Origin: Clostridia bacterium
GTDB taxonomy: Bacteria > Bacillota_A > Clostridia > Oscillospirales > QAKW01
NCBI GenBank assembly: GCA_017396865.1
Contig: JAFQKO010000145.1
Location: 1-26,449 of the forward strand
Direction of reading: 5' to 3'
Length of the DNA: 26,449 bases
Part shown: positions 3,134 through 22,117 of the stretch, in pieces
Numbering within the stretch: the stretch's first letter is position 1
Layout of the letters: every line of letters begins with the position of its first letter
Position numbers and translations under genes: made by a program
Notes under the pieces: model-generated
The model's database searches: none
Told to the model about the DNA's origin: nothing
The model's input: only the letters and a program-made list of their open reading frames with translations

Positions 3134-3676
3134 ATGCCAGAATTGGGCGGATTACGCGAATTGCCGGATATTAAGGCATTGATTTTGTTTTTATTAAAAG
3201 AGGCCAACTGCGTTTTGAAAGAAGGCCAGCTCACCGATATCATCATGGCCGACGGCCTGGTGGAATACTTCGACTACGCCCAGAGCGTTGAGGAGCTGCT
3301 GATCTCGGGCCTGATCGATATCGCCTCGCTGGAGGAAATGAGCAGCTATCGCATCACCAAGCGGGGATTGGAGGTAGTGGATGAGTTTGAAAAGACCCTC
3401 CCCCATAACGTAAAGGCCACCACCCTCATTGCCCTGAAGGAAGGGCTGAAGAAAAAGCAGGACGAGGAGGATATCCGCGCGGATATCGAGCAATCCCGCA
3501 GCGGCTTCACTGTAACCTGTACGGTGCGGGAGGCGGGCGAGATCATGTTCTCCTGTAAGGTGCTGCTGCCCGACCGCAAGGCGGCCTTCTACGCCGCCGA
3601 ACGCTTCCGTGAAAACCCCAGCGCCTACTATCAAAAAATCATGGAACTGATGCTGGACGAAAACCCGTTTCAGTAA
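3134..3676 (+). CDS. DUF4364 family protein
   Basis: A 180-residue cytosolic protein of the DUF4364 family, found as a single copy in many Clostridia; its role is unknown. The N-terminal half looks like a winged helix (IKALILFLLKEANCVLKEGQ through YRITKRGLEVVDEFEKTLP), suggesting DNA binding or a regulatory function; the C-terminal part is a compact alpha/beta region ending FRENPSAYYQKIMEL. The start has AGGAG nine bases upstream and follows the Gx gene by three bases, so it is the last gene of that operon, closed by a perfect hairpin. Its last 25-36 codons recur twice as fragments at 6484-6592 and 14603-14677, making this gene's 3' end the apparent target of repeated insertion. Confidence 0.82.
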   Translation: MPELGGLRELPDIKALILFLLKEANCVLKEGQLTDIIMADGLVEYFDYAQSVEELLISGLIDIASLEEMSSYRITKRGLEVVDEFEKTLPHNVKATTLIALKEGLKKKQDEEDIRADIEQSRSGFTVTCTVREAGEIMFSCKVLLPDRKAAFYAAERFRENPSAYYQKIMELMLDENPFQ

Positions 3677-3710
3677 AAAAATCGCTTAGGCAAACGCCTA
3701 AGCGATTTTT
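3677..3710. terminator. Perfect bidirectional terminator
   Basis: A 15-base perfect stem (3677-3691 with 3696-3710) around the loop AAAC, rich in GC in the middle and ending in five T on the plus strand and five T on the minus strand. It serves both the DUF4364 operon from the left and the TIR gene from the right. Confidence 0.9.
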
Positions 3711-3717
3711 AATTCAA

Positions 3718-6387
3718 TTAACCCAATTCAATCCACAAAGCGGGGCGGACGGCAAGATCATCATCGTCGCCGTAGCAGCCGAACTCATAGACGTCGCCGT
3801 CAGTATCGACAAAGGCGGCATCATCCTGAATGTAACCGGGCGACCGCAGCCACCACAAGCAGTTGTCGTTGTAGACATCCGCTCCATTGGCAACTGCATA
3901 ATCCGTTGGCTCACACTGTCTTGCGCTATCGGAACTAAAATATTTATTCGCCTCCGTGATGCTAAGCAAGAACACTTGATCCTGCGTTGCGTTGCCGGGA
4001 TCTGTGCTGTATTCAGGATTTTCATCTGCCGACACCGTAACGGTAGGAATCATAGCCTTTTCGTCAGCAGAAAATGCAACATCCATAAAGGAACTGTTTA
4101 ACCATGATCGCAAGGAGCAGGTCTCCCAAGTAACGACTGTTAAGCTTGTATTATACGGCTGGCAATCGAGTGCATTTTTACTGAGCACCAATGCCTTTCC
4201 ATCCTTGACCTCAAGCACCTTCCATTCAATCATTTCAGCGCCGTTAGACGTATCATTATCCTGCTCATAATTGCCAAAATAAACAATTTCTCCGACTTTC
4301 GGGTCTTTCAATGAATCAGCTATTTTTTGCTCTATTTTTTGCTCTGTTTCTTCAATTTTTTCCTCGCTGTCCCTATAATCGATTATCGTTTCAAAGGCAG
4401 CAATTGCTTCTTGATATTTTTCGCTCTCTAAATAGCTGATCGCTTCATCATATGTAGCGGCAGCGCGACACTCCTCGATCATCTCTTGATCGTTTAACTC
4501 TTGAAAGAGGGCAATCGCACTATCGTATTTCCCGTCCTCCATCAATGCAACCGCTTCGTTATACTTTAATACTGAACTCAACATAATAACAACCAACACC
4601 AAAACAGCGATGGCTACCGCGCTCACAAGGCCAATAATGCGGGCTCGTTTTGCTTTCCGCGCCGCCTCGATCCTTGTTTTTTCCACTTTTTCTCGGCATT
4701 CCTGCGCGAGCTGATCGGCATTTTTCCAGCCGGCAACCGATTCAAAAAGCGCAATGGCATCCTCATAGCCCTCAACGGTCTGATACTTCATTTCGGAAAT
4801 GCCACGCTTCAAAACGTTATCCTTATGTAACAGCTCCGCCCGCTCATAGCAATCCTGCCGCCGTGCTTCGGAGTCCTTATACGAGCCGAGACGGCCGAAC
4901 AGCTGCGCAACGTGCCTGATCTCTGCCTCGGTGGAGGCATTTTGCATGGCACTACATACATCTTTGTAGGTCTGCTCCAGCAGCTCCTCATGTAACCGCT
5001 CCACCTGCTCATAACATTCTTGCTGCCGCGCCTCGGAATCCTTATACGAACCGAGGCGGCCGAATGTCTGCGCAGCATGCACGAACTCTGTCTCGGTGGA
5101 GGCATTTTGCATGGCACTACATGCATCTTTGTAGGTCTGCTCCTGCAACGCCGCCTCATTCCGCTTGACAATATGGGTGACGCATTCAACCAGCATGGTT
5201 TTCAGCGCCTTATCGCCGAAACGAAACGTCTTTTGATAGTTGTTGCTGCCGTCGAAGGGCTCTTTGCAATCCCGCAGCTCCTCCTGATTATGCACCCGCA
5301 GCTCGGCCATCAGCTTGCAAAGATAGGCCTCGGCGCATTCGGGATCCTGATTTAATACCTGCTCGCAGAATTCATCGGCCCGCTCCCAATCGCCGTCCTC
5401 CAAAAAGAGATGGATTCGCTTCAACAGCGGTGCGATATTCACCGCACCGTTTGCGGCAGAGGACTCTGCCCGCACGGCGGTCTGCGCTGCCGCATCCTTG
5501 CCCATCACCTTTTTGACACCGCGCACCAAATCATTAATAAAGCCGAGCTTTGCCATATCCTGCGCCTGCAGATGAGCAAACTCCTCGGGCAGCTCATAGG
5601 GATCCATCTCCCGATAGCAGGGGATCAGCAGCTTGGAGCGATCCTTCTGCATGATCTTCAGATACCGCGACCATTCATTGCGCACCCAAACGGCGTTGAA
5701 ATATTCGGGCTTGGTGCCGATTGCCAGCATCACCTTAGCGCTGTTCAGCGCGGCGAAAATGATCGGCTCATAGGCCTCGCCCAGCTTTCCCTCCAGCGTA
5801 ATGGCCGCATAAAAGACCTTAAAGCCCTCTTGGGTAAGCTGGTAATAGATCTCGTTTGCCAGCACGCTGTCCTGCGTACGGTGCCCCTCGGCATCGGTTT
5901 CTTTATAACAGATAAAAACGTCGTAGGTTTCCTGCCGCTGCGCCAGCGCAAGGATCTCCCGCTGAATGCGGTCGATCTCCGCCGCCTGCTGCTCATAAAT
6001 CGCCCGACGGCTCGGATCGGCGTTGGCCAACGCCGCCTTATAGTCCTCATCGGCGATCACCGAATCATAGGAGGCGCGATGGCAGGTGGGGATCTTTTGA
6101 AAGGTAACGGGGTCATCCACGTATTCAATGCCGTAGCGGCAGAGGATCAGCCCCCAATAGGCCTCCGACTGGGTGGAATCGGCCTGCACGATCTTTTCGT
6201 ATATCGCCTCCGCTTTATCGAATTCGCCCTTGATCCGAAGCAGATTGGCACGGTTAAAAAGATTCTTTAAGTTTTCATCCATCGACTGCGGAACAGTCTG
6301 CTTGGTGCCGCAATAGATGCATTCGGCAACGGCAGTTCCCGCAAGAACCTCCAGATCACCGCCGCACATTTTGCACTTAAACAACAT
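3718..6387 (-). CDS. Membrane-spanning TIR protein with zinc ribbon, TPR-like repeats and DUF6273
   Basis: An 889-residue multidomain protein. In order: a zinc ribbon (C5, C8, C23, C26); a TPR-like helical pair (about 38-90); a TIR domain (about 154-255) starting YDVFICYKETD, with GFKVFYA and a helix AVWVRNEWSRYL whose E238 is the likely NADase glutamate; helical repeats (315-570) including two 55-residue units (416-470, 471-525); a basic stretch KTRIEAARKAKRAR and one membrane segment (about 583-605); a second TPR-like part (608-665); and a C-terminal DUF6273 domain (about 697-889), of the type often found on Clostridial cell-surface proteins (GEIVYFGNYEQD, CLWWLRSPGY, AVRPALWI). The positive-inside rule puts the TIR in the cytoplasm and DUF6273 outside, so it reads as a receptor. 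The start has AGGGG and a consensus promoter. TIR proteins often make NAD-derived signals or deplete NAD in phage defence; no Thoeris ThsA or other partner lies nearby, so the role is open. Confidence 0.85.
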   Translation of the reverse strand: MLFKCKMCGGDLEVLAGTAVAECIYCGTKQTVPQSMDENLKNLFNRANLLRIKGEFDKAEAIYEKIVQADSTQSEAYWGLILCRYGIEYVDDPVTFQKIPTCHRASYDSVIADEDYKAALANADPSRRAIYEQQAAEIDRIQREILALAQRQETYDVFICYKETDAEGHRTQDSVLANEIYYQLTQEGFKVFYAAITLEGKLGEAYEPIIFAALNSAKVMLAIGTKPEYFNAVWVRNEWSRYLKIMQKDRSKLLIPCYREMDPYELPEEFAHLQAQDMAKLGFINDLVRGVKKVMGKDAAAQTAVRAESSAANGAVNIAPLLKRIHLFLEDGDWERADEFCEQVLNQDPECAEAYLCKLMAELRVHNQEELRDCKEPFDGSNNYQKTFRFGDKALKTMLVECVTHIVKRNEAALQEQTYKDACSAMQNASTETEFVHAAQTFGRLGSYKDSEARQQECYEQVERLHEELLEQTYKDVCSAMQNASTEAEIRHVAQLFGRLGSYKDSEARRQDCYERAELLHKDNVLKRGISEMKYQTVEGYEDAIALFESVAGWKNADQLAQECREKVEKTRIEAARKAKRARIIGLVSAVAIAVLVLVVIMLSSVLKYNEAVALMEDGKYDSAIALFQELNDQEMIEECRAAATYDEAISYLESEKYQEAIAAFETIIDYRDSEEKIEETEQKIEQKIADSLKDPKVGEIVYFGNYEQDNDTSNGAEMIEWKVLEVKDGKALVLSKNALDCQPYNTSLTVVTWETCSLRSWLNSSFMDVAFSADEKAMIPTVTVSADENPEYSTDPGNATQDQVFLLSITEANKYFSSDSARQCEPTDYAVANGADVYNDNCLWWLRSPGYIQDDAAFVDTDGDVYEFGCYGDDDDLAVRPALWIELG
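4926..5143 (-). repeat. Tandem 165-base duplication inside the TIR gene
   Basis: Two neighbouring 55-codon units encode almost the same sequence, EQTYKDxCSAMQNASTExE followed by FGRLGSYKDSEAR and a C-Y-E motif. Stretches of DNA around 4932-4980 and 5097-5145 are nearly identical, so the duplication is fairly young or kept alike by conversion. Copy number may vary between strains. Confidence 0.75.
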
Positions 6388-6420
6388 TCTTATATTTCCC
6401 CTTTTGTGTTCTTGCTCTTT

Positions 6421-6449
6421 ATTATATCAAAGAACTTCTCATATTTCAA
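6421..6449 (-). promoter_or_regulatory. Promoter of the TIR gene
   Basis: Minus strand TTGAAA (6444-6449), 17-base spacer, TATAAT (6421-6426): a near-consensus housekeeping promoter, followed by the ribosome site AAGGGG before the ATG at 6387. The 16 bases at 6417-6432 recur exactly at the -10 region of the rhamnosidase gene. Confidence 0.75.
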
Positions 6450-6456
6450 CAAGTTT

Positions 6457-6486
6457 CTAAAGCAGCAGAGGCCGGAGCTGTTTGCC
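6457..6486 (-). pseudogene. Fragment of a dpaB-like 3' end
   Basis: Read on the minus strand these bases give GKQLRPLLL and a stop, against GKQLQPLLL and a stop at the end of the intact dpaB at 21545. Fourteen bases (GGAGCTGTTTGCCC on the plus strand) match exactly. The fragment starts eight bases beyond the TIR promoter and is cut off at GCCC, where the DUF4364 fragment begins. It cannot be expressed. Confidence 0.7.
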
Positions 6487-6592
6487 CGACCGCAAGGCAG
6501 CCTTTTATGCCGCGGAGCGCTTCCGCGAAAACCCCGGCACCTACTATCAAAAAATCATGGAATTGATGCCGGACGAAAACCCGTTTCAATGA
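6484..6592 (+). pseudogene. DUF4364 3'-end fragment, copy B
   Basis: The last 34 codons and stop of a DUF4364 gene, aligned without gaps to 3568-3676. I count eight synonymous codon changes, three amino-acid changes (S to G, A to T, L to P) and a TGA in place of TAA. The frame is intact to its stop but has no start; on the left it is joined to a dpaB-like end. The excess of silent changes indicates divergence while under selection as a working gene. Confidence 0.85.
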
Positions 6593-6655
6593 AATCGATA
6601 AAAGAGCCAAGACGACAACTTCGTCTTGGCTCTTTTTATAGCTTTATTTGGAAAG
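6592..6655. repeat. Identical 64-base block, copy 1
   Basis: Bases 6592-6655 are identical to 14677-14740. The block runs from the stop of the DUF4364 fragment through the terminator into the last four codons of the dockerin gene. Similarity continues on both sides into the DUF4364 fragment and the dockerin coding end with scattered changes. Confidence 0.9.
6600..6638. terminator. Terminator of the dockerin/GH78 operon
   Basis: A 15-base stem, AAAGAGCCAAGACGA with its complement, around a short loop, followed by T-runs on both strands. It lies just past the stop of the dockerin protein at 6644 and is identical to the one at 14685-14722. Confidence 0.88.
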
Positions 6656-7957
6656 CAATTTCATTAAGCGCAGAGCGTCGGCAAGGGTAATCTTGCCATC
6701 CTCATTGAGGTCGGCGATCGTTTGATCGATCTCACCGTTGCCGTTGAGGCTCTGCAACAGAGTGGAAACGTCGGCGGTGTTTGTCAGAAAATCCCCGTTA
6801 AGATCATAGAGCGCACCGTTGTTCTCCAGCAGTTGATTCAGCGTAAGAGCGTTTTCCGCGGCAGTACGCCAATTGGAGGTAACCGGCTCCACATAGAGCA
6901 TTCCATCCTCCAGTTCACCGACAGTGAACGGGTTAATTTTCGAAAAGTCGTTATAGAACAGCACCGTACCATCGGCGGCGGTCAGCTTGAGATTATCGTA
7001 ATAGGCGCTGTCGCCGTCCGAGATCATATGACGAAAACCGATCTTTCCGAAGTGGACAAGATTCGAAGTAAACTCGCCAAGCAGGGTATCGTCTATCGTT
7101 ACGGTGACAGTGGTACCGACGGCTTTGAGCGTAAAATGATAGGTCTTTCCCACCTCGATGGTTGCGGATGCGTTCAACGGGAAGGAATTGGCCTCATTGA
7201 TAGTCGAAAGAATCCGAACATTGCCCGCACTGCTGCTTACCAGAACGCACAGATAATCCTTTGCATCCATAGCGGAGAAAATCAACCCCGCAGAATTACC
7301 CTCCAGCTTCATATCAAATTCAAGGGTGTAGTCGCCGCAGTAGCCGGTATGATTTTTCTTGAGTTCATCGATCGTGCGAAGGCCCATCGTCACCTTGCCC
7401 GCGTTGCAGAAGGCACCGACATGCAACATTCCGTCGGTGGTCAGCGTACCGACACCGAAGGGGTTTCCCGCCGAAAAATCCGTCTCATAGAGCACGGTTC
7501 CGTCGGCGGCGGTGATCTTCACATCATCATAATAGGCCGAATCAGCATCAGAGATCATATGGCGGAATCCGAATTTATCCAGACAAATGGCACTATCGGT
7601 GACGCTGCCGGCCAGCTGCTGATCGACATAGACCGTGGCGGTGGTACCTTCCACTACGATCTTCACGGCATAGGTGTCCGTTTCCGCATCATAAGCGGGA
7701 TTCGCCGCCGTCATTACACGTCCCACCGAACCACCGCCGGATTTAATGATCGTAACATTGGCACCGCTGTTGTAGAACTGCACGAAAAAGAAATTCGTAT
7801 TATCCACACCGGCAAACACAAAGCCGTTGGTTTTGGAACCATCAAGACGGATGGTATATTCCAGCGTATAATCGCCGGAAGTATCGGCGGCATGGGCGGG
7901 AACAGCAAGCAACATCATAGAAATGACAAGAAGTACGCTAAAAATTCTTTTAAACAT
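6644..7957 (-). CDS. Secreted non-catalytic dockerin protein with two LamG-like domains
   Basis: A 437-residue exported protein: signal peptide (residues 1-23, ending VPAHA), two similar beta-sandwich units (about 27-185 and 207-365) and a C-terminal dockerin (about 384-437). The units share GFRHMISDxDSAYYD followed by TAADGTVL and a closing DFSxxNPFxVG. They look like concanavalin-type carbohydrate-binding domains (LamG or the related DUF1080/GH16-like fold), but I see no catalytic motif. The dockerin shows two calcium-loop repeats, DLNGDFLTNTADV and [20 protein letters not shown]. The same unit occurs three times in the rhamnosidase upstream. The ATG is preceded by AAAGGAG, and only 21 bases separate it from the rhamnosidase stop, so the two are co-transcribed. 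Likely role: a binding module held by a cohesin next to the enzyme. Confidence 0.8.
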   Translation of the reverse strand: MFKRIFSVLLVISMMLLAVPAHAADTSGDYTLEYTIRLDGSKTNGFVFAGVDNTNFFFVQFYNSGANVTIIKSGGGSVGRVMTAANPAYDAETDTYAVKIVVEGTTATVYVDQQLAGSVTDSAICLDKFGFRHMISDADSAYYDDVKITAADGTVLYETDFSAGNPFGVGTLTTDGMLHVGAFCNAGKVTMGLRTIDELKKNHTGYCGDYTLEFDMKLEGNSAGLIFSAMDAKDYLCVLVSSSAGNVRILSTINEANSFPLNASATIEVGKTYHFTLKAVGTTVTVTIDDTLLGEFTSNLVHFGKIGFRHMISDGDSAYYDNLKLTAADGTVLFYNDFSKINPFTVGELEDGMLYVEPVTSNWRTAAENALTLNQLLENNGALYDLNGDFLTNTADVSTLLQSLNGNGEIDQTIADLNEDGKITLADALRLMKLLSK

Positions 7958-7978
7958 GGTATTATCTCCTTTTAAAAT

Positions 7979-10900
7979 TTATTCCGAAAGCAGCTTCATC
8001 AGGCGGAGGGCATCCGCAAGAGAAACCTTTTCATCCAGGTTCACGTCGGCGGCCACCGTATCGATGGCAACATTACCGCCGTTAAGATATTTCAAGAGGA
8101 CGGTAACGTCGGCCGCATTGGTCTCGCCATCGTTGTTCAGGTCGATACCGAGATCCTCGGGCTCGGTTTCGGGCTCCGCCAGGATCGGGTGGGTTTCGCC
8201 CTGCAGCATATTAAGGGCAGCGGCTACCGTACCGTCTGTAAAGGCGGCGGCTTCGGACGCAATCGTTCCGTTCAGGGCGGCCGCCGTGCCCGCACCGCTG
8301 CTCAGATAATAGCAATCGGTCGTTTTTGCCGCGGAGGCAGAGCCATAGCGAGCGATAGAATGGGATAAACCATCATGATTGATCAGCAGGAGCGTACCCA
8401 TATGATAGCTATCACTGATAACCGCCGCGTTCTCTCCGCTTTGCCCCCAGGAGCAAAGACCGGCAACATTTGTCTTACCGATCACCACGCCGACATTATA
8501 GCTATGATCGATGGAGCTTGCATGGCGGGCATTACCTGCGATTCCGGCCACTCCGTCCACACCCGAGATCGCCATCACCCTCGCTTCATTCCAGCAATCA
8601 ACGATCACCGTTCCGCCGTCGGCATAGCCAACAAGACCGCCGACAACGTTAGGACCGGTCACGCTGCCGGAGACACCTAAGTTTTTGATTACCGCGCCGT
8701 TGGTATAATTAAAAATACCCACGCCGGTCGCACTTTCGACGATATTCACGTTTTTCAGCATATGATACTGACCGTCAAAGGTACCTTCAAAGGCGGCGGT
8801 GCTGTAGCAACCTACGCCCTTCATGGCAAAGCCCTCGAAATCCAGGTCGCAGGTCAGGGTTACTGTCTTCCCTGCGAAGGTCTCGCCGCTGTTTACTGTC
8901 GCGGCGAATTGCAACCATTCGGCAACAGAGGAAATGGCGATCCTCTCCCCGACGTAGCTTCCCGGCGTCAAAAAGGCTGCTTTAGCCTCCTTCAGAGCGT
9001 TCATATGAGTTTCAGTCTCCGCAGCGGTATAACGACCGCCTTTCAGATACTCCGAAGCAGCTGCGCAGGCCTTCGCAAGATCATCGGTATCCTCAAAATG
9101 CTTCTGATAAAAAACAAGGTCCGTATCATCCAGTTCCGATTCCAGCCCGCGCACATCCCCCTCATCGGTCAACGTACCGGTAAAGGTGTATGTACCGCTT
9201 TGAATCTCAAAGACATTGCCGCTCTGCGTTACGCAGGTCATATCGTCCACATCAGCAACGCCGGGGGCATAGACGGTGGCATATGCGTTAGCGGGGACGG
9301 TAACCGTCCACGTGTAGGAATCACCGTTCAAATCCCAATGGCTGACGATCTTTCCGTAGGCACTGTCGTAGGAGGCGTTCACAGACTCCAGCGCGGAATT
9401 GATCTCCGGCGCCAAGACGATGTGATGATAGCCGGGATCCTCGATATCCGCCTGAATACCCGCCATATACTCAAACATCCACTCCACAATTGCGCCGTAG
9501 GCATAATGGTTAAAGGAGTTCATGGTGGAGCCGTGCTTGGATGCAAGCTCGGACATTCCCACGCCGTCGATCATTCCGTTCCAGCGCTCCCAAATGGTGG
9601 TAGCACCTTTAGAGACAGAATAACCCCAAGAGGGATATTCCGTTTGCTGAACCAATGCGTAGACCACGTCGCTGTGCCCATATTTGCTGAGCATCGGAGC
9701 CAGCGCGTTAACGCCGAGGAAGCCCACCGAAAGTTTCATGCCGTTTTCTTTGACCTTTTCGGCCAGACGGTCTGCCACCCGCTGCTCCAGCGCCTCATCC
9801 ATCAAAACATTCGAATAAAGAGTAAGGGCGTAGGCGGTTTGAGTATCGCCGACCATGCGGCCGTCGGAGCTGAAAAGTTCCTGCTTATACTGATCGGAAA
9901 GCTCCCGAAGAAGATTTCGATAATAGACAGCGTCCTCGGCCTTGCCGAGAAGTTCAGCCACCTTTGCGATCCGATCCAGCGAAAGGGCAAAATAGGCGGA
10001 GTTTGTGATTAAATAGGGGGTACTGTCCGTTGCAAGCCAATCGCCAATGGAGGAGCCGCGGATCATCAGGTTTCCGGTAGAAGCATAGCCCGCCTTAGCC
10101 AGGCGATTGGTGATCCAACTCTGCATCGAAGCATAATTCTCGCGGAGAATACCGATATCTCCATAGGTTTCATACAGCGTGTAGGGGATCGTAATGATTC
10201 CGTCTGCCCAACCGGGCGTACCGCCACTTCCGCTCTTCCCGCTCGAGGTGCTCGGCGCCGTATTGGGAACACCGCCTCCCGAGCCCTGCTCATTGGCAAG
10301 AATCTCCATAAAATGGTCCAGAAAGGCTTCAATATCGCTGTTGTATACCGCCGCACCGACAAACACCTGCGTATCGCCCGAAAATCCCAACCGCTCATCC
10401 CGCTGGGGGCAATCGGTAGGAACGGCGAGATAGTTGGAGAGCTGACCCCACAGCGCGTTGCTGTAGATCTGATCCACCAGATCATCGGAGGTCTCCAAAG
10501 ACGAGGTCACCTCGGTAAGGCTGCTCCACACCACGCCGATCAGATCGGAAAGCGAGGGCTCATACCCTAAGCCGCTGACCTCCACATATTGGAAACCATG
10601 GAAGGTAAAAGCGGGCGTATACGTAACGGTACCGTCTGCGCCGAAGATATAGTAGTCGGTGGCGAAGGCGGTGCGGAGATTTTCGGTAAAAAGCTGACCC
10701 TCCAGCTCGCCGTCGTATTCATTATAAAGGGCTTCGCCGTAGCGCAGGCGGACGGTTTGACCCGCTACGCCGGTGGCCTTCAAAGTAACGACGCCTGCGA
10801 AGTTCTGACCCATATCGAAGATATAGGCATCCTCCCCTACCTTGGTAACGGTCTTGGGGGTGATGGTATCATACACCTGAACGCCGGTATTGCTTTGCGC

Positions 10901-13504
10901 CTGCCAGATTACGGTTTTTAAATTCACATTGGTACGGAAACTTGGATCTGTTGCCGAAACAGCATTTTTCCAATCCGCATCCTGAAAGCCGACGGTATTC
11001 CAGCCGGGCTGCTCGCGGGAAGCGTCGTAGGTCTCGCCGTTGAAATTATCGGTAACAAGATAGGGGGATTCCGTGCTGACCTGCCAGCTTTCATCGGTCA
11101 CCACCGTATCGGTGGTACCGTCGATATAGGTAATCAACAGCTGCCCCTTAAAGCCAACGTCGATTCCGTAGTATTGATAGTTGCAATCACCCTCACCTAC
11201 ATGACCGGCATACCAGCCGTTGCCGACCACCGCGCCGATGGCGTTATCCCCGCTTTGCAGCAGCTCGGTCACGTCATAGACCTGATATTCCAGCACGTCA
11301 TAGTATTTGGTCCAACCGGGGGCAAGCTGTTCGGTGCCCACCGCCTGACCATTGATATAGGATTCATAAACGCCCAATGCGGAAGCATACAGCCGCGCCG
11401 ACGCAACCTCTTTTTCTACCTTAAATTCTGTGCGGAACAAGGGTGCGCCCTTCTGCTCCACATCCCGCATATGCAGGCCGGTTCTCTTCAGGTAAAGAGT
11501 GCCCGCTTGGGTGCGGCCGGTGCCGAAAGGATCGGTATGGTCATTAAAATCCGCTTCGATCAGCACCTTTCCGTCGGCGGTCAACCTATAGTTATCGTAA
11601 AAAGCAGCTTCGCCCTCTCCCTTGGAGTGGCGGAAACCCACCTGACTCAGGACGGACAATGCATGAGAGCGACTGTCCACCAGCGTATCATTCAGATAGG
11701 TTTCAATATGCTGATTGGAATAGACCACGATTTTCAGTCGATGCCAATCATTGCGTTCCGCCCACGGAATGACTGCGGAAACATCCACATTCTCCAGGCA
11801 GGACGCGCTGCCACCGATCACCGCATGGGGACGCAGATAAACCGTTTCGGTGGCCTTTCCCATCGAAAGATTCAACTGCCAGAACAACAGATTGCGGGCA
11901 TCGCTACCGCCGAAGGCCACGCTGCCGGCAACCGACTCCACCTTCAAATCGGTTTCGATGGTATACAGCACCTCGCCGTTAGCGGAACTGTTTTCGCCCT
12001 GTAATTTCAACGATTCATAGGTACTGATCGCGCGGCGCTCCGAAAGGGGGGGAACAAGCAGTCTGCCGTTTTCAACCGTACCGACGCCGAAGGGGTTTCC
12101 GTCGCTGAAGTCAGTTTCATATAACACCGCACCCTCGGAATCGGTGACCTCGATATGATCATAGTAGCCGCTCTCCTGATCGTCGGTTGTATTGAAATGA
12201 CGGAAGCCCAGCACGCCGAAGGCGATCGTGCTGTCGGTTACACTCCCCAGCACGATTTCGTTCACGCTGACGGTAGCGGTGGTACCGACCACATCGATCT
12301 GCACCTTAAATGTATCCTCAATCGTTCCGTCGAAGGTCCAACTTCCCAGCGATCTATCACTGCCGCCGTTGCAACGGATCACCTGCGCTTTCATCGGATT
12401 TGATTTTGCATTCAACTGAACCGCCACATTATTATTGACGTCGGTCCCGGCGAAAATAAAGCCTGCAGCATGGTTGGCGATCTGCACCTCGTAGCGCACA
12501 GTATAATCACCGGAATACCGAAAACCGGCATTTTCATTTTCCAGCATCTCCTCCAGCGACCAGATCGAATCCGCAATCCGCCAGTTGGAGGTAATCGGCG
12601 GAACATAGAGTTGCCCATCCGTTAGCGTACCGACGCCGAAGGGGTTGGCAACGGAAAAATCGTTCTGAAGCAGTACCGTACCATCAGCCGCCGTGATCTT
12701 CAGATCGTCATAATATGCACTGTCGCTATCCGAGATCATATGGCGAAAGCCAAACTTCCCGAATCCCAGCGCAGAATCGGTAAATTCGCCCAGCGTTGTA
12801 TCATTCAGATAAATCGTTCCGGTGGTTCCGACCAATTTGATTTTGATTTTATAAGAAATATCCTTGGAGATCGCCACCGTCGGTTGGAGCAGAAAGGTGT
12901 TTGTGGCGTTGGAGGTTTTCAGAACGCGGATTCCCTTACTGTTAGCACTGTTCATCAAAACTGAATAAAACGTATTGCTGTCTGCCGCGGAAAAGATAAA
13001 GCCCGCCGCCGTTCCGCTGAGCTTAAAGGTATATTCCAGCGTATAGTCGCCATCATAGAATTCCTTGGATTTTTCCACCGCGCTGATCATCTCGGCGGTG
13101 AACTCCTTTGCAGGATCAAAAAAGGCGGTTTCGAAAACCGAGGAAGCGGAGCGGGACGCACCGCTTTCATTCCAGACGGTGACCGTCCAATCATACGCGG
13201 TGGTGGAAACGAGAGTTTCGCCCGCATAAGCGGCAGAGCAGGCATCGCTTTCCACCTTACCGCTATCCCAAACGGTGGTCTCACCTTTTTTTACAACAAC
13301 TTGAAAAGCGGTCTGCTTAGCACCGCGATGAGACGCCTCCATCCGCCAGGAAAGGGTCGGATTTTGCGCATCTACATTCAACGGTGCCGTTAATGCATTA
13401 CATTGCAGATCCGTCACCGACCAATCGGTGGTTTCTGCCATAACCGGAAAAGCACCCAAAAGCATTGCTATCATAAGAAGAATACTCCACATCCTTTTTT
13501 TCAT
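7979..13504 (-). CDS. Giant dockerin-bearing alpha-L-rhamnosidase (GH78)
   Basis: An 1841-residue exported enzyme predicted to release alpha-L-rhamnose. Order: signal peptide (1-23); the rhamnosidase N-terminal Ig-like domain (about 27-130); three LamG-like units (about 149-305, 324-490, 508-675); the rhamnosidase N domain (about 688-860, ARLYASALGVYESYINGQ); the beta domain (860-1000); the six-hairpin catalytic domain (1000-1345) with DCPQRDERLGFSGD (1031-1044), which holds the conserved acidic cluster, and TTIWERWNG with the likely base E1306; the C-terminal beta domain (to about 1440); a helical linker; GLUG-type repeats (about 1520-1710); and a dockerin (about 1785-1841). A plain GH78 is about 900 residues. 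The start has AAAGGGG seven bases upstream. The target is probably a rhamnose-containing glycan such as pectin; that is inference. Confidence 0.92.
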   Translation of the reverse strand: MKKRMWSILLMIAMLLGAFPVMAETTDWSVTDLQCNALTAPLNVDAQNPTLSWRMEASHRGAKQTAFQVVVKKGETTVWDSGKVESDACSAAYAGETLVSTTAYDWTVTVWNESGASRSASSVFETAFFDPAKEFTAEMISAVEKSKEFYDGDYTLEYTFKLSGTAAGFIFSAADSNTFYSVLMNSANSKGIRVLKTSNATNTFLLQPTVAISKDISYKIKIKLVGTTGTIYLNDTTLGEFTDSALGFGKFGFRHMISDSDSAYYDDLKITAADGTVLLQNDFSVANPFGVGTLTDGQLYVPPITSNWRIADSIWSLEEMLENENAGFRYSGDYTVRYEVQIANHAAGFIFAGTDVNNNVAVQLNAKSNPMKAQVIRCNGGSDRSLGSWTFDGTIEDTFKVQIDVVGTTATVSVNEIVLGSVTDSTIAFGVLGFRHFNTTDDQESGYYDHIEVTDSEGAVLYETDFSDGNPFGVGTVENGRLLVPPLSERRAISTYESLKLQGENSSANGEVLYTIETDLKVESVAGSVAFGGSDARNLLFWQLNLSMGKATETVYLRPHAVIGGSASCLENVDVSAVIPWAERNDWHRLKIVVYSNQHIETYLNDTLVDSRSHALSVLSQVGFRHSKGEGEAAFYDNYRLTADGKVLIEADFNDHTDPFGTGRTQAGTLYLKRTGLHMRDVEQKGAPLFRTEFKVEKEVASARLYASALGVYESYINGQAVGTEQLAPGWTKYYDVLEYQVYDVTELLQSGDNAIGAVVGNGWYAGHVGEGDCNYQYYGIDVGFKGQLLITYIDGTTDTVVTDESWQVSTESPYLVTDNFNGETYDASREQPGWNTVGFQDADWKNAVSATDPSFRTNVNLKTVIWQAQSNTGVQVYDTITPKTVTKVGEDAYIFDMGQNFAGVVTLKATGVAGQTVRLRYGEALYNEYDGELEGQLFTENLRTAFATDYYIFGADGTVTYTPAFTFHGFQYVEVSGLGYEPSLSDLIGVVWSSLTEVTSSLETSDDLVDQIYSNALWGQLSNYLAVPTDCPQRDERLGFSGDTQVFVGAAVYNSDIEAFLDHFMEILANEQGSGGGVPNTAPSTSSGKSGSGGTPGWADGIITIPYTLYETYGDIGILRENYASMQSWITNRLAKAGYASTGNLMIRGSSIGDWLATDSTPYLITNSAYFALSLDRIAKVAELLGKAEDAVYYRNLLRELSDQYKQELFSSDGRMVGDTQTAYALTLYSNVLMDEALEQRVADRLAEKVKENGMKLSVGFLGVNALAPMLSKYGHSDVVYALVQQTEYPSWGYSVSKGATTIWERWNGMIDGVGMSELASKHGSTMNSFNHYAYGAIVEWMFEYMAGIQADIEDPGYHHIVLAPEINSALESVNASYDSAYGKIVSHWDLNGDSYTWTVTVPANAYATVYAPGVADVDDMTCVTQSGNVFEIQSGTYTFTGTLTDEGDVRGLESELDDTDLVFYQKHFEDTDDLAKACAAASEYLKGGRYTAAETETHMNALKEAKAAFLTPGSYVGERIAISSVAEWLQFAATVNSGETFAGKTVTLTCDLDFEGFAMKGVGCYSTAAFEGTFDGQYHMLKNVNIVESATGVGIFNYTNGAVIKNLGVSGSVTGPNVVGGLVGYADGGTVIVDCWNEARVMAISGVDGVAGIAGNARHASSIDHSYNVGVVIGKTNVAGLCSWGQSGENAAVISDSYHMGTLLLINHDGLSHSIARYGSASAAKTTDCYYLSSGAGTAAALNGTIASEAAAFTDGTVAAALNMLQGETHPILAEPETEPEDLGIDLNNDGETNAADVTVLLKYLNGGNVAIDTVAADVNLDEKVSLADALRLMKLLSE

Positions 13505-13528
13505 TCAAAAACCCCTTTCGATATCTTA

Positions 13529-13558
13529 TTGACTTTATTATATCAAAGGTGCTATAAT
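13529..13558 (+). promoter_or_regulatory. Promoter of the araC-type gene at 13.6 kb
   Basis: TTGACT (13529-13534), an 18-base spacer and TATAAT (13553-13558). It overlaps the divergent rhamnosidase -10, so binding of polymerase or regulator at one would affect the other. The expected transcript start near 13565 puts the short frame at 13576 inside the leader. Confidence 0.65.
13537..13542 (-). promoter_or_regulatory. -10 element of the rhamnosidase operon
   Basis: A perfect TATAAT on the minus strand inside the 16-base sequence at 13533-13548 that is shared with the TIR promoter. The expected -35 position holds only T residues, so the promoter is probably weak alone and helped by an activator, presumably the divergent AraC protein. 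Confidence 0.5.
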
Positions 13559-13575
13559 AAAAAAAGAGGTCATAA

Positions 13576-13650
13576 ATGGACAATTTATATTACGATCACG
13601 GCAAGAAGGAGCATACAATTGGAGTTACAATATCCGTATTATCTGAATAG
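13576..13650 (+). other. Short leader frame or frameshifted start of the AraC gene
   Basis: A 24-codon frame starting ATG with AGAGGT five bases upstream, encoding MDNLYYDHGKKEHTIGV and six more residues. It overlaps the TTG start of the AraC gene by 32 bases in another frame. Removing one G at about 13621 would join MDNLYYDHGKKEHTI to ELQYPYYLNSGW in the AraC frame, giving a protein of about 303 residues. So this is either a leader peptide coupling translation or a one-base frameshift (real or from sequencing). Confidence 0.5.
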
Positions 13651-14485
13651 TGGTTGGACACTAGAGTTAAAGAGCCACAAATGCATGTTGCTCTTATGCG
13701 ATAGTCCATTTGCCACGCCGCACAATCATTCTGACCGATTTGAGATCGGCTATGTATTAGAAGGAGAAATCGATCATACCATTCACGGTAGCTGCACGCG
13801 GCTGTTCAGTGGGGACTACTACTTTGTCGATCTCGGGGTGACCCACAGCTACACCAGCAGGTCGCAGGTCAAGGTTTTAAATTGTATCTTTTTTGCCGAG
13901 GCGATTGATCCCGCCTTCAAACACTTTACCACTTTTTCTCAAATTGCCAACAGCCCGGTTTTTCTCTTTTCAGGCAGTCATCTTTCCCTACTGAACCAGC
14001 CATACTTCCACGATGAAGACGGCGTTCTGCTCGCGCTGTTGCAGCAGATCCATAGGGAGATCCGGCAAAAAAAGATAGGTCATCATCACATGATCCAAAA
14101 TCTAATCCAGCAGATCGTGATCCATCTGATCCGTGCAGATAGCAATACGCAGGAAATTCCCGATCAACAGCCTTTTTTCAAGGATGCTCTTCAGCTGATC
14201 GATGAATGCTCCGGCAATATCAGTTTGCAGGAAATCGGCAAGCAATTGAACTATTCTGCCGATCACATCGGGCGATTGTTCAGGGAAAAAATGCATATTT
14301 CTTTCACTGAATATATTCAGAGGATCAAATTATCCCGAAGCTGTACCTACCTTTCGGATACCGATTGGAGCATCGCCAAAGTGGCCGAGACGGTGGGATA
14401 TCAGAACGTACAGTTTTATCATCGGTTGTTCAAGCGTTATTATTCCATGACCCCTTTGCAATATCGAAAGCGTCGCAAAAAGTGA
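13619..14485 (+). CDS. AraC-family regulator, divergent from the rhamnosidase operon
   Basis: A 288-residue regulator. The N-terminal half is a cupin-like sensor domain (about 1-150) with TPHNHSDRFEIGYVLEGE and a ligand-pocket type SGDYYFVDLGVTHSY. The C-terminal 100 residues are the double helix-turn-helix of AraC/XylS proteins, with ISLQEIGKQLNYSADHIGRL as the first and SIAKVAETVGYQNVQFYHRL as the second, then the usual MTPLQYRKRR end. The start is taken as TTG at 13619 because AAGGAG lies seven bases upstream; a start at ATG 13576 would need a frameshift. Divergence from the rhamnosidase with overlapping promoters makes it the likely activator of that operon, responding to rhamnose or an oligosaccharide (inference). 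A strong hairpin terminator follows at once. Confidence 0.85.
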   Translation: MELQYPYYLNSGWTLELKSHKCMLLLCDSPFATPHNHSDRFEIGYVLEGEIDHTIHGSCTRLFSGDYYFVDLGVTHSYTSRSQVKVLNCIFFAEAIDPAFKHFTTFSQIANSPVFLFSGSHLSLLNQPYFHDEDGVLLALLQQIHREIRQKKIGHHHMIQNLIQQIVIHLIRADSNTQEIPDQQPFFKDALQLIDECSGNISLQEIGKQLNYSADHIGRLFREKMHISFTEYIQRIKLSRSCTYLSDTDWSIAKVAETVGYQNVQFYHRLFKRYYSMTPLQYRKRRKK

Positions 14486-14518
14486 AAAAGATCCGAGAAA
14501 AAATCCTCGGATCTTTTT
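14485..14518 (+). terminator. Terminator of the AraC gene
   Basis: Stem AAAAAGATCCGAG with its complement CTCGGATCTTTTT around an A-rich loop, ending in five T. It begins at the last base of the AraC stop codon. Confidence 0.85.
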
Positions 14519-14522
14519 GTTT

Positions 14523-14566
14523 TGACACCTCATCCGTCAGCCTTCGCCCACCGGAGAAGGCAAAAC
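14523..14566. repeat. Possible remnant of a dispersed intergenic repeat
   Basis: The stretch CACCTCATCCGTCAGCCTTC, continuing to GGAGAAGGC, resembles the start and end of a short hairpin-type repeat that I recall as common between genes of gut Clostridia. The middle is missing. There is no second copy in the window to compare, so the call rests on memory of the family. Confidence 0.3.
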
Positions 14567-14602
14567 TTACTCGTTCAATGGCTTCATCAGCCGCAGGGCA
14601 AG
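14567..14602 (-). pseudogene. Fragment of a dockerin gene 3' end
   Basis: On the minus strand these bases read LALRLMKPLNE and a stop, against [10 protein letters not shown] or [10 protein letters not shown] at the ends of the three intact dockerins in the window. The fragment is cut at its inner side exactly where the DUF4364 fragment begins. It points to a further dockerin gene once present here and now lost. Confidence 0.7.
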
Positions 14603-14677
14603 CGTTTTCGCGAAAACCCCAGCGCCTACTACCAAAAAATCATGGGACTGATGCTGGACGAAAACCCGTTTCAATAA
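14603..14677 (+). pseudogene. DUF4364 3'-end fragment, copy C
   Basis: The last 24 codons and stop of a DUF4364 gene (RFRENPSAYYQKIMGLMLDE and the end), aligned without gaps to 3602-3676. I count five synonymous changes and one amino-acid change (E to G). It has no start; on the left it is fused to a dockerin end read on the other strand. Confidence 0.85.
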
Positions 14678-14740
14678 AATCGATAAAAGAGCCAAGACGA
14701 CAACTTCGTCTTGGCTCTTTTTATAGCTTTATTTGGAAAG
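14677..14740. repeat. Identical 64-base block, copy 2
   Basis: Identical to 6592-6655; it again joins a DUF4364 fragment stop, the terminator and the final codons of a dockerin gene. Perfect identity including the hairpin loop suggests recent copying or gene conversion. Confidence 0.9.
14685..14722. terminator. Terminator of the GH95 gene
   Basis: The same 15-base stem and loop as at 6600-6638, lying just beyond the stop of the GH95 gene at 14729, with T-runs on both strands. Confidence 0.88.
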
Positions 14741-17700
14741 TAATTTCATTAAGCGCAGGGCATCGGCAAGGGTAAGCTTGCCGTCGGCATTGAGATCGGC
14801 GAGGTCCGCATTGATCTCGGAATTGCCGTTGATATTCTGCAAAATCGCAACGATGTCGGTGCTATTGACGGTGCCGTCAAGATTCACATCGCCCGTCGCA
14901 AGAGCGGTCAGCGTTGCATCGGATTCAAAAACCTTAGTGATCAACGCTTCGCTCGTCAGGAAGGTTCCGTTCAGGAACCAGCCCTTTGCGAGGAGTCCGA
15001 TCTCATCCCCGATCAGCAGACCCTCTGCATCGGTATAGTACACATCGCTGCCAAGGGTGATCGCATAGACGGGAGCGCCTTCCGCAATCATCGGCATATT
15101 CTTCTGCACCCAATTTCCGGATGTCTTCAAAGTATAGGCCAGCTTACCGCTTTCAATGTCGGCGGCGGTCTGACCGACGTAGTTGTTTTCCTGCACCGCA
15201 GTCGGAGCATTGACATTGCCGACTGCGACCGCTTCGTCGGTATAGCAGTTCTTCATGGTGAAGGCGGTGGTGATCCCCGAACCGACCAAACCGCCGAAGG
15301 GGTTCAGCGTACCGCCGGTATAGGTATTATTATAAGCGCCGCAGTTGAGAACAGACGTATTGACCGACTCGCCGAGGATGCCGCCGACGGAATAGACCCG
15401 AATGTTATTTTCAACGGTTAGGCTGTTGCCCCAGGTATAGCAATTCTCGATGAGGCAAGCGGCACCACGGTTTTTACTTGCGATGAAGCCAATGTTATAG
15501 ATGTTTCCGCCGGCCTTAACCGTAATAGAACTGCCGTTTACAGTACAATTCTTAATGGTAAAGCAATCGGCGTTCGACGCAGTTTGACCGACAAGAATCC
15601 CGCAGCCGCTGTAGGAAGATGTAAGCGTACTGTCTTTGACGTGAACGTTATCGATCAGACTTGTAGTACCGTAAACATATCCGACAACCACCGCACCGTA
15701 ATTCCGATTGGCAGTAACCGCAGCCTTCTCCACGGTCAGATTTTTCACCGTACCGCTGAGGCAGGAAAACATTCCAGAATCGTTGACGCCATCGGTAATC
15801 ACGTAATTGGAAATCGTCTTATTTTGCCCGTCGTAAGTACCTTCGAACCGGATTTTTTCTCCCACGCGAACGTTGAGATATTCCGACATATCGATATCCG
15901 CGGTCTGCAAAACGGTTTGAGAAGCAGTCATTCTGCCGTTGTTCACCCGCTCTGCAAAAATCACAAAATCCTCGGCGGTAGAAACAGACAGTTTTTCCAA
16001 ACCGCCGTAATAATAATTACCGGCAATGCTTACAGAAGGATAAACCTCACTTTGTACCAACAACTTGGCCGCTGCAATCAACGCATCACAGTCCTCTGCA
16101 TTTTCAATCGCATCGTTAAAGGCAGCAAAGGACTCTGCGGTAAAGTACTTGGCATCCAAAACAGCAGCATCGTTTCGCAGAACCGGCGCCCATCCCGCCT
16201 CATAGGATGCGCTGTTATGCACCGCCATCCCGGCCATAAATTTCGCAATATAAGGAGCAAGGATATCATATCCTTCTTTGTTGGGGTGTACCGTATCCGG
16301 CAAATAAGTCTTCGTTTTGACCATCAAGGCCTCGTTCAATGCAGAGTCGTCGTACATATTATAGAAAGCGACACCCCACTTTTCACAGATCTTTTCTGCC
16401 TCCACGATATATTCCCGCATAAGCGTATCGTCAACACTTGAATTCCCCGGGACCCTGAAGTTCATCAGATAACCGATCGCCGCCGTATCTCCGTAAAGTT
16501 CAATCGCCGTGCTGAACGTTTGCTCCAATGCGCCGGAATAGGTTCTGACGTCAAAATCATCTGGATCGAAAGAACTGCTGATTTTTCCAACAGGGGTACT
16601 TTCACCGGCATCGTTGATTCCGCCATGAATCATTACGTAATCAAAATCTTCATCCGCATGATTCAAAAGTTGGGTGACGATCCGCCCCCAATTCACCGCA
16701 TTGCTTCCGTAAGAAGAAACCGTATTGCCGCGGATTCCTGCATTTACATAGGTCATGTTATATGCATTGGCAATGCGTCCGCCCCAGCTGAGTCGATTAG
16801 AGGAATCGTCCCCGGAACCATAAGTAATAGAATCCCCTACATAAAGAGCGCTTTTTCCTTCCAGCACGGAATAATCAACCGTTTGCTGCTCAAAGGTCAG
16901 GGTATAGACTTCATCTGCCTTGGCGGCGAACTCGATGGTATCTGCGGCCAAAGCGGTGGTCTCCACCTTGGCACCGTTGGAATCGGTGACGGTGGCCTTG
17001 CTGATGTAGCTGCCCTTCACCTGCAGGGCTTCATCGGCGGTACCGACAGCGAGGGTAGCGGTTGTGGGAGCACCGTTGCTCCAGGCAACGTCTACCCCGA
17101 TATTGCCGCGGGCACGCAGACCCTCAATCGAGCCTTCGCTCCAAACAGACGGCAGAGCGGGCAACAATTCAATGGCATCGCCCTGGCTCTGCAACAGCAT
17201 CTCGGCCATACCTGCGGTTGCGGCGGTATTTCCCTCCGACTGAAAGACATCAATGCTGGTCGATGACCTGCAAAGCATATTATAATAAGTTCCAATGGAA
17301 AGCGTATTTATCAATTGGTCATAAGCCCGCTCTCCATCTTTAATTCGGGCCCAAAGATTCATCATCCAGCAAATCGAGAGCGCCGCATTGCGTCCGTCAC
17401 CTCTGGTATTCAAGGTGTTTTTGATTGCCTCGATGTAGCAATCCTGCTCCTCGCTGACCCCAACCGCCAGTTCTGCTCCGGGATACAGACCGTAGAGGTG
17501 GTTAATATGGAAAAACCTATTGTCACCGGTTACGTCAATCGTAACTTCGTCCTTCCATTCCTGGAACTGACCGCCTAAGCCAACGGAATAGGCAGGCAGG
17601 CGTGCCAACGATGCTTCGATCTCTGCCAGACGTGGATCATCCTCGACCCCCAGCACCTCGGCAGCGGCCAAGGTATTGGTGAAAAGTTCTCGAATAATTG

Positions 17701-21507: not shown

Positions 21508-21546
21508 AAAAAACCTGCCCGAAACTCTGTTTCGGGCAGGTTTTTT
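21508..21546. terminator. Strong bidirectional terminator
   Basis: A 17-base perfect stem, AAAAAACCTGCCCGAAA with its complement, around the loop CTCTG, with runs of six T on both strands. It ends the AraC transcript from the left and dpaB from the right, overlapping the dpaB stop. Confidence 0.92.
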
Positions 21547-22117
21547 ATAATAGCAGCGGTTGGAGCTGTTTGCCCTTGAGGGCGGCCTCCAGCGCGGCGG
21601 GGATCAGCGAAAAATCCGCCACGCAGGAGCGGGGCTTATGCTCCACGTCGTCCTGACGGTAGGGAACGAAATAATAGTTCTTTAAGCCCTGCAACGCGCC
21701 GATATTCTTCGCGCCGCCCTGCAGAGCGTCGTTGGTGGAAAGGGCGATCAAGATCGGTTTATCATTGCGCAGGGTGGATTTCACCGCCATGGTGACCGCC
21801 GTATCGGTCACCCCAAGCGCCAATTTGGCAAGGGTATTGCCGGTGCAGGGCGCAACGATCAGCGCATCCAGCAGCTTTTTCGGGCCGATCGGCTCCACCT
21901 GCGGGATGGTATGCCAAATTTCATGGCCGCAAAGCCCCTGCAGCCGCTCGCGAAAATGGGCGGCAGTACCAAAGCGGGTATTGCTCTCATAAACGATCGG
22001 CGACATGATCGGCACCAACCGATACTGCCCCGAGAGGGGCTGCAAAGCATCCAGCACCTGCGAAAGGGTGCAAAAAGAGCCGGTGAGGGCAATTCCGATC
22101 TGCAAAGGCTCAACCAT
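21545..22117 (-). CDS. dpaB: Dipicolinate synthase subunit B
   Basis: Subunit B of the enzyme that makes dipicolinic acid, the calcium chelator of the spore core, from a lysine-pathway intermediate in the mother cell. The 190 residues match the flavoprotein-like fold of the family: IGIALTGSFCTLSQV at the start, IMSPIVYESNTRFG, a pair APCTGNTLAKLALGVTDTAV, and ILIALSTNDALQGGAKNIG. The length is normal. The start has AAAGGAG and overlaps the end of dpaA by eight bases, the standard arrangement of the two subunits. Its 3' end is also present as a ten-codon fragment at 6457-6486. Confidence 0.93.
   Translation of the reverse strand: MVEPLQIGIALTGSFCTLSQVLDALQPLSGQYRLVPIMSPIVYESNTRFGTAAHFRERLQGLCGHEIWHTIPQVEPIGPKKLLDALIVAPCTGNTLAKLALGVTDTAVTMAVKSTLRNDKPILIALSTNDALQGGAKNIGALQGLKNYYFVPYRQDDVEHKPRSCVADFSLIPAALEAALKGKQLQPLLL

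Follow-up and report, generated by a model that had tools for sequence, protein, structure and literature searches.

Introduction

Integrative islands are known to stack at one target. Genomic islands of the Islander type are bounded by a regenerated target gene and a displaced fragment (PMC4383910). Comparable layouts have been described for rhs genes, in which C-terminal displacement leaves orphan 3' regions strung downstream of the intact gene (as cited in PMC5361080), and for the T6SS effector-immunity arrays of Vibrio cholerae, in which incoming alleles displace the old part and pieces of it are kept downstream; the authors of the latter study propose a mechanism akin to homology-facilitated illegitimate recombination, HFIR (PMC5361080). 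In HFIR, as described for naturally competent bacteria, a homologous anchor on one side is combined with a short-microhomology joint on the other, 3-10 bp in most cases, and the products have generally lost a stretch of resident DNA comparable in length to the insert (PMC3240628).

Here we describe a locus in a window of 26,449 bases, the whole stretch of DNA that was analysed, from a bacterium with enzymes for the degradation of plant fibre, in which the 3' end of a DUF4364 gene occurs three times. It resembles HFIR in having a short-microhomology joint (5 bp at the joint termed B below). Unlike HFIR products, which generally show such a loss (PMC3240628), it appears to have kept the resident site, and the anchor is not visible. 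The displaced pieces are reminiscent of the T6SS arrays. What those arrays retain, however, is complete immunity genes with a possible remaining protective function, whereas short tails of a housekeeping gene are found here, and the retained cargo consists of enzymes and a TIR protein (PMC5361080). Compared with the Islander-type islands, our locus has no integrase and no fixed core, and its far end at joint B is a chromosomal neighbour gene. The DUF4364 tail looks like an anchor only, unlike the rhs tip; to our knowledge DUF4364 does not carry an exchangeable tip. By its origin the arrangement looks like the result of recombination with the DNA of relatives, and not like a mobile element or a defence island.

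The DUF4364 gene, its displaced 3' ends and the cargo

The following features were identified (domains by Pfam; copies A, B and C by repeat search, blastn and codon comparison):

3134..3676, + strand, intact DUF4364 gene, 180 aa (PF14277, 1.3e-35); its 3' end is copy A
3567..3678, + strand, copy A, 3' end of the intact DUF4364 gene
3677..3710, 34-nt terminator-like palindrome between DUF4364 and the convergent TIR gene (self-inverted blastn match and sequence)
3718..6387, - strand, TIR gene, 889 aa, with TIR_2, TPR repeats and a C-terminal DUF6273
6483..6594, + strand, copy B, displaced DUF4364 3' end
6644..7957, - strand, dockerin protein, 437 aa (Dockerin_1, Laminin_G_3)
7979..13504, - strand, GH78 alpha-L-rhamnosidase with dockerin, 1841 aa
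13619..14485, + strand, AraC-type regulator 1
14603..14679, + strand, copy C, displaced DUF4364 3' end
14729..20464, - strand, GH95 enzyme with GDSL esterase and dockerin, 1911 aa
20619..21470, + strand, AraC-type regulator 2

The three same-strand 3' ends had been reported in a first-pass annotation and were confirmed by repeat search and blastn. The content that it had given for the intervals was also found, namely the TIR gene only between A and B, and the genes for the dockerin protein, GH78 and AraC between B and C. Copies A and B are 89% identical over 112 nt (blastn, E 8.7e-37), copies A and C 92% over 77 nt (E 6.3e-26). The displaced ends have no common core breakpoint: aligned to copy A, B begins at 3567 and C at 3602, 35 nt apart (blastn), and it is possible that the start of C reflects erosion.

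In a homologue search with the DUF4364 protein, 45 of the 47 matches were homologues of 182-185 aa, the nearest being P0001 (93% identical) and P0002 (87%). In the collection of papers searched, none mentions DUF4364. The TIR protein had been proposed as a possible defence gene. This proposal found no backing in the databases, and no known defence system was recognised: PADLOC gave no match, NCBIfam only Thoeris ThcB4 far below its cut-off (22.3 bits, cut-off 220), and the PDB sequences only a weak TPR match. As noted before, no integrase is visible; neither an integrase nor a recombinase was found among the 18 window proteins scanned with Pfam. An IstB-type match at 24562-25506 sits in a DnaC-like gene outside the region.

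Divergence and kinship of the tails

The codon counts given earlier hold. Over 36 codons, A and B differ by 8 silent sense codons, a silent change of the stop codon and 3 replacements; over 25 codons, A and C differ by 5 silent codons and 1 replacement. We simulated decay with one branch neutral and one constrained, the latter set at 0.05, under four transition biases. Replacements as few as those between A and B were obtained in 0/968 to 14/980 retained runs, and as few as those between A and C, run on 24 of the 25 codons, in 5/1544 to 51/1491. Silent changes dominate beyond the expectation for a decaying duplicate, suggesting that the copies were probably working genes in sister strains.

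A tree placed A, B and C in one clade against six relatives with a support of 0.974. Moreover, all three have a stop codon after NPFQ, which occurs in none of 45 near-full-length homologues. The single clade and the common early stop point to close kin as the source, so that import, if any, would have been from sister strains. Of the earlier view that the copies are imported, once-working genes, the part concerning import is consistent with the silent excess, whereas a source in a foreign lineage does not agree with the single clade and the common stop. Clustering of B and C with the DUF4364 gene of this genome, which had been named as evidence against import, was found in part, in that the three copies form one clade with respect to the six relatives.

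The joints of tails B and C

The sequences to the left of both tails were compared with the ends of the surrounding genes:

6457..6487, - strand, dpaB', truncated 3' end of dpaB with stop, GKQLRPLLL* (comparison with the intact dpaB end)
6483..6487, TGCCC, 5-bp microhomology common to dpaB and DUF4364 at joint B (junction strings)
14523..14547, probably part of a short repeat that is scattered through genomes of the order (multi-copy, individually weak matches)
14567..14602, - strand, dockerin', truncated 3' end of a dockerin gene, LALRLMKPLNE* (comparison with intact dockerin ends)
21545..22117, - strand, intact dpaB, dipicolinate synthase subunit B (NCBIfam NF006161, 232.7 bits)

The gene dpaB is the native right-hand neighbour of DUF4364, being directly adjacent and convergent in L001 and L025. 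Left of tail B its 3' end is found in antisense, so that the displaced tail is fused to the end of another gene. The piece is identical to the intact dpaB end at 24 of 31 nt, with 4 silent codons and 1 replacement, and was the best of 42,840 gene-end comparisons at 6457-6487 (next best 18/31). In plain blastn the dpaB tail found dpaB' only at E 0.001 and an unrelated internal piece in L022 at E 4e-4, which speaks against the stacking of segments preferred below; the matching stop codon, frame and place nevertheless strongly suggest that the piece is a dpaB end. The chance of a microhomology of at least 5 bp at joint B is about 0.005.

Left of tail C there appears to be an antisense dockerin 3' end, for which the case is less strong than for dpaB'. 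It matches the dockerin end of the GH78 gene at 23 of 33 nt, that of the GH95 gene at 21 and that of the 437-aa protein at 19. The value of 23 was reached by none of 20000 mononucleotide shuffles, and the GH78 and GH95 ends were the best of 61,880 gene-end comparisons (21/31). This reading emerged from a control gene-end scan and not from a prior prediction. A 6-nt gap and changed residues relative to the intact ends count against stacking, and a search by pattern for the same type of dockerin end in the loci examined found none. Microhomology is not definable at joint C because there is no parent sequence for its left side. We also considered a dispersed repeat as the origin of the left side of C. 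This was rejected, as recurrence is limited to about 25 of 88 bases and the individual matches are mostly weak (query bases ~5-29, mostly E 0.001 to 1).

At both joints a convergent gene (dpaB, dockerin) contributes its last 30-36 nt and DUF4364 its last 75-111 nt. Both lie at most 36 nt from a stop codon, which would not be expected of random breakpoints and counts against stacking. That the convergent 3' ends at this site are a recurrent, non-random joining point, with recombinase-free stacking preferring convergent ends and terminators, is a tentative idea that we regard as doubtful.

The DUF4364-dpaB site in relatives

DUF4364 and dpaB are convergent neighbours in four of the six close relatives. 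The site between them is empty in G001 and G005, contains a methyltransferase in G006 and four genes in G007, and comprises 17.9 kb in the window. As had been suspected, the locus downstream of DUF4364 is a variable insertion site, with empty and variously filled states. No DUF4364 tail better than E 0.02 was found in the G006 and G007 loci.

Displaced tails were sought more generally in 481,924 bases, comprising the window (26,449), contig C29 and parts of contigs C27 and C5 of G007 (391,638) and the loci L001, L023, L024 and L025. For each ORF of 120 aa or longer, the 150 nt at either end were compared, and matches elsewhere than in the ORF itself were recorded if they reached 40 nt and 80%. 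The four loci gave no 3'-end match at all. The G007 list (42 3'-end and 46 5'-end matches) was judged by reading its stronger matches, without a formal filter; these showed no clear core-gene tail beside cargo and were mostly between neighbouring paralogue-like ORFs. Displaced tails as a general habit were rejected, there being no further clear case among the matches read.

Origin of the arrangement

The order in the window is DUF4364-TIR-dpaB', then DUF4364'-dockerin/GH78/AraC-dockerin', then DUF4364''-GH95/AraC-dpaB. With moderate confidence we favour serial stacking by means of DUF4364 as anchor and a non-homologous joint (HFIR or an equivalent). Between the convergent core genes DUF4364 and dpaB there would be a tolerated cargo site, to which alleles of the site from closely related strains may have been added in tandem and without replacing each other. 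From a resident state DUF4364''-GH95/AraC2-dpaB, the segment DUF4364'-dockerin-GH78-AraC1-dockerin' would have been added first and the segment DUF4364-TIR-dpaB' second. On the left every incoming piece would restore a whole DUF4364 gene; on the right it would be joined without real homology, the incoming convergent gene 3' end (dpaB' or dockerin') meeting the resident DUF4364 3' end, which would become the displaced tail. The most likely route would be a RecA crossover in or upstream of DUF4364 and a microhomology joint at the far end, possibly with small deletions later. The tails, the fused gene ends, the microhomology at B and the empty or differently filled sites of relatives are observations; the route, the sister-strain source and the order of events are deduced from them.

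Stacking is suggested by the same type of joint found twice (dpaB' to tail B via TGCCC, dockerin' to tail C), by the native adjacency of DUF4364 and dpaB in relatives, by the silent excess in the tails and in dpaB' and by the missing integrase. Against it, no donor genome for the inserted segments was found and the homologous anchor side is unseen. No loss of resident DNA is visible between DUF4364 and dpaB, unlike in most published HFIR products, and as a hint on DNA uptake the ComEC domain (PF03772) was found in only four of the six close relatives, whose genomes may be incomplete.

Exactly the same joints would arise if a whole DUF4364-cargo-dpaB segment had been added by homologous recombination, either as a tandem duplication with the allele of a sister strain or from a circle closed between dpaB and DUF4364 with one crossover, and the redundant dpaB and DUF4364 copies had then been deleted to short ends. 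Tandem duplications made by transformation have been described (PMC3784515). Such a course accounts for the shortness of both fused gene ends and for dpaB' ending just before the promoter-like site of the TIR gene (6449-6421), but it needs more steps, and the relatives examined show no intermediate at their DUF4364-dpaB sites; we consider it possible, though rather unlikely. Insertion of integrative elements that use the DUF4364 3' end as target, substituting their own copy and leaving the displaced one at the far side, as first proposed for this locus, would produce an intact gene, cargo and same-strand displaced ends as in islands with a regenerated target gene (PMC4383910). Even if the integrases had been lost later, this is improbable: none of the 18 proteins is an integrase, the tails start 35 nt apart, and the piece abutting tail B comes from the chromosomal neighbour dpaB. 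In addition, DUF4364 relatives in mobile records (9 phage, 2 plasmid) reach identities of only 30.3% and 28.2% at best, and there were none among 27 pattern matches in IMG/VR viral contigs. The lack of an integrase, of a common breakpoint and of mobile records with the target-gene end led us to reject an integrase-type insertion.

Old duplications within one genome, with fragments B and C decaying in place, would agree with the clade of A, B and C and with the stop after NPFQ. The replacements are, however, too few for neutral decay, the three different cargoes are left unexplained, and dpaB' and the resident dpaB are separated by 7 differences in 31 nt, most of them silent; simple duplication is disfavoured by the silent excess and is improbable. 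An assembly or amplification artefact joining strain variants has to be considered for a window that comes as a contig outside the whole genomes examined. The 5-bp overlap at joint B is too short for joining by an assembler, both joints are alike in form and the flanking genes are full-length open reading frames, making an artefact the least probable of these explanations.

If serial stacking is true, plant-fibre enzymes and a TIR gene can accumulate at one harmless spot when relatives' alleles are added and not swapped, with no visible mobile element. If the joining point is also non-random, fibre-degrading bacteria would keep the cargo alleles of several strains side by side without swapping them. 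Any genome can be screened for the scar, an antisense convergent-gene end fused to a displaced anchor-gene tail, and such a screen would show what share of cargo was gained in this way.

Similarity of the B and C flanks

The similarity between the surroundings of B and C extends beyond the DUF4364 tail, the regions 6516-6757 and 14601-14842 being 88% identical (blastn). This region includes a terminator present in two copies:

6600..6636, 37-nt palindromic terminator, copy 1 (repeat search, blastn)
14685..14721, 37-nt palindromic terminator, copy 2, identical to 6600-6636 (repeat search, sequence comparison)

From the DUF4364 stop to the dockerin stop all 51 bases, including the terminator, are the same in B and C. 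Within the dockerin gene, the final 45 bases agree at 42 positions. Since the intergenic sequences are identical although the tails differ by 12%, a later exchange is probable. On contig C29 of G007, two adjacent genes are 93% alike over their last 142 nt, one of them overlapping a dockerin-type match; similar dockerin ends, as beside B and C, may therefore be usual in the group.

Displaced DUF4364 ends and the gene ends joined to them

The first-pass annotation had described three same-strand copies of the DUF4364 3' end, and these were recovered both by a repeat search and by blastn. The copies, together with the sequences to the left of the two displaced tails, are as follows.

3567-3678, plus strand: copy A, DUF4364 3' end inside the intact gene
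6457-6487, minus strand: dpaB', ending GKQLRPLLL*, directly left of tail B and matching the end of dpaB
6483-6594, plus strand: copy B, DUF4364 3' end (89% identity, E 8.7e-37)
14567-14602, minus strand: dockerin', LALRLMKPLNE*, left of tail C and resembling a dockerin gene end
14603-14679, plus strand: copy C, DUF4364 3' end (92% over 77 nt, E 6.3e-26)
21545-22117: intact dpaB, ending GKQLQPLLL*

Each displaced tail is fused to the 3' end of a different gene lying in antisense, dockerin' being the weaker case. At joint B, dpaB' agrees with the end of intact dpaB at 24 of 31 bases, with four silent codons and one replacement. The match has its stop codon in register and terminates at the joint. 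When the ends of 17 genes of the window were set against the 93 bases to the left of joint B, 42,840 comparisons in all, it ranked first (24/31, next 18/31), and for one fixed place the binomial figure is 1.4e-9. By plain blastn the dpaB tail matched the window with an E value of 0.001 only, and an unrelated internal match in L022, a locus from a relative, reached 4e-4 in the same kind of search; the case for dpaB' therefore rests on its frame, stop codon and place. The sequence TGCCC is common to dpaB' and DUF4364 at this joint (chance of an overlap of at least 5, about 0.005).

At joint C, dockerin' was aligned with a two-residue gap to the counterpart end of the GH78 protein (13 letters, not shown). 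It matched 23 of 33 bases of the GH78 gene, 21 of GH95 and 19 of the gene for the 437-aa protein, all three encoding dockerin-bearing products, and none of 20000 mononucleotide shuffles of this piece reached 23. The GH78 and GH95 ends also topped all 61,880 comparisons left of C (21/31). Of the two identifications this is the weaker. Between dockerin' and the regulator gene AraC1, positions 14523-14547 are probably part of a short repeat that is scattered through genomes of the order (e.g. G015, G032, G061, G088 and G135), the single matches being mostly weak.

To the right of the tails, B and C are identical at 51 of 51 bases from the DUF4364 stop to the dockerin stop (6593-6643 and 14678-14728), a stretch that contains a 37-nt palindromic terminator, and at 42 of the final 45 bases of the dockerin gene, whereas the coding tails agree at only 66 of 75 bases (12% difference). 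Since the flanks are more alike than the tails, a later exchange seems likely, and the pattern suggests that it, or a conversion, ran through the terminator and the end of the dockerin gene. Dockerin gene ends may undergo homogenisation in this group. In the relative G007 two neighbouring genes (contig C29:169250-174463), one of which overlaps a dockerin-type match, are 93% identical over their last 142 nt.

The DUF4364-dpaB site in relatives

A single-protein query of the genome collection recovered one relative, whose locus L001 (68% identity) has DUF4364 and dpaB as direct convergent neighbours. The family that this genome belongs to is represented by 12 genomes, among them G001; 10 of these match DUF4364 and all 12 match dpaB. 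Among the six close relatives (59-72% identity) the gap is empty in G001 and G005, holds one methyltransferase gene in G006, and in G007 carries MFS, metallo-beta-lactamase-fold, pyrophosphatase and rubrerythrin genes. In G008 the two genes lie about 3 kb apart and point away from each other, and in G004 they are on separate contigs. The four distant relatives (31-33%) have them on different contigs, except G010, where about 113 kb separates them. In the G006 and G007 loci no match to a displaced DUF4364 tail scored better than E 0.02. Because it is empty or differently filled in relatives, the site is variable, which supports the earlier suggestion of an insertion hotspot downstream of DUF4364; stacking, the tandem addition of cargo alleles between DUF4364 and dpaB, was found in the window only, among the loci examined.

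Source of the copies

Recounting confirmed the earlier codon counts: A and B differ by eight silent sense codons, a changed stop codon and three replacements (36 codons), A and C by five silent codons and one replacement (25 codons). B and C differ by five silent codons, the stop included, and four replacements (25 codons). Were B or C a decaying duplicate, roughly half of the divergence should have arisen free of constraint. Simulations let one branch evolve neutrally and set the other at 0.05, over transition biases of 1 to 8; replacements as few as observed occurred in 0/968 to 14/980 retained runs for A-B and in 5/1544 to 51/1491 for A-C. As simulated decay so rarely yields so few replacements, the copies would have diverged mostly as working genes.

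The three copies form one clade (support 0.974, 72 nt) against the six relatives. In all three NPFQ is followed by the stop. The 45 near-full-length homologues, the 93% and 87% identical ones included, all run on for a few residues; the remaining two hits, of 47, are short and their ends are unrelated. The clade and the common early stop count against a distant source. Sister strains of one narrow group would fit both these features and the silent excess.

Proposed mechanism

An incoming piece would pair within DUF4364 or upstream of it, and its far end would be linked to the 3' end of the resident DUF4364 by a non-homologous joint. This would yield a restored DUF4364 and new cargo, then a truncated end of the neighbour gene that came in with the piece, then the old tail. 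The window arrangement would follow from two such rounds, C being added before B because of the nesting. Serial addition at the DUF4364 side is the simplest account, and stacking explanations as a family carry most of the weight. Within this family the largest share goes to homology-facilitated illegitimate recombination (HFIR), whose anatomy is that proposed here; HFIR joints mostly show 3-10 bp of microhomology (PMC3240628). A smaller share falls to duplication of the whole segment followed by deletion, or to a circle with one crossover, either of which would leave identical scars. Against stacking and HFIR count that in the window neither the anchor side nor a deletion of resident DNA is visible, that both joints are oddly near stop codons, that the B and C flanks are more alike than the tails, that dockerin' is short and changed, and that a ComEC domain was found in only four of the six close relatives.

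The layout is like that of integrase-bearing islands, but the window shows neither an integrase, among 18 proteins scanned, nor a fixed breakpoint, and the integrative element considered in the first-pass annotation was not borne out. The nearest natural parallel is the T6SS immunity arrays of V. cholerae, where successive incoming alleles are described with old parts retained and an HFIR-like route is proposed (PMC5361080). Among the matches listed in the open-access literature on HFIR, DUF4364, island accretion and dockerin/cellulosome transfer, no description of the DUF4364-dpaB site was found. The case is instructive yet ordinary in kind, and its double scar makes the mechanism testable.

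The TIR gene

A defence function had been considered for the TIR gene. PADLOC gave no match to its product and NCBIfam only a sub-cutoff match to ThcB4, which lends the idea no support; the gene may or may not act in defence. By Pfam the product comprises TPR repeats, a TIR_2 domain and DUF6273, and inside the gene a 165-nt tandem duplication (85%, 4820-5149) adds one 55-residue repeat. The protein or part of it is matched in 49 of 147 genomes of the order, in several at many places. The N-terminal TPR-TIR half (about 400-460 residues) has relatives (loci L043-L054) at several places per genome, no more than six candidates being scored in each, and these often lack a matching C-terminal part; G014, G031 and G100 have 6-7 matched places each, not all of them separate genes. 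Judged by these matches, the TIR family appears to be modular and expanding, and it gives no PADLOC match here.
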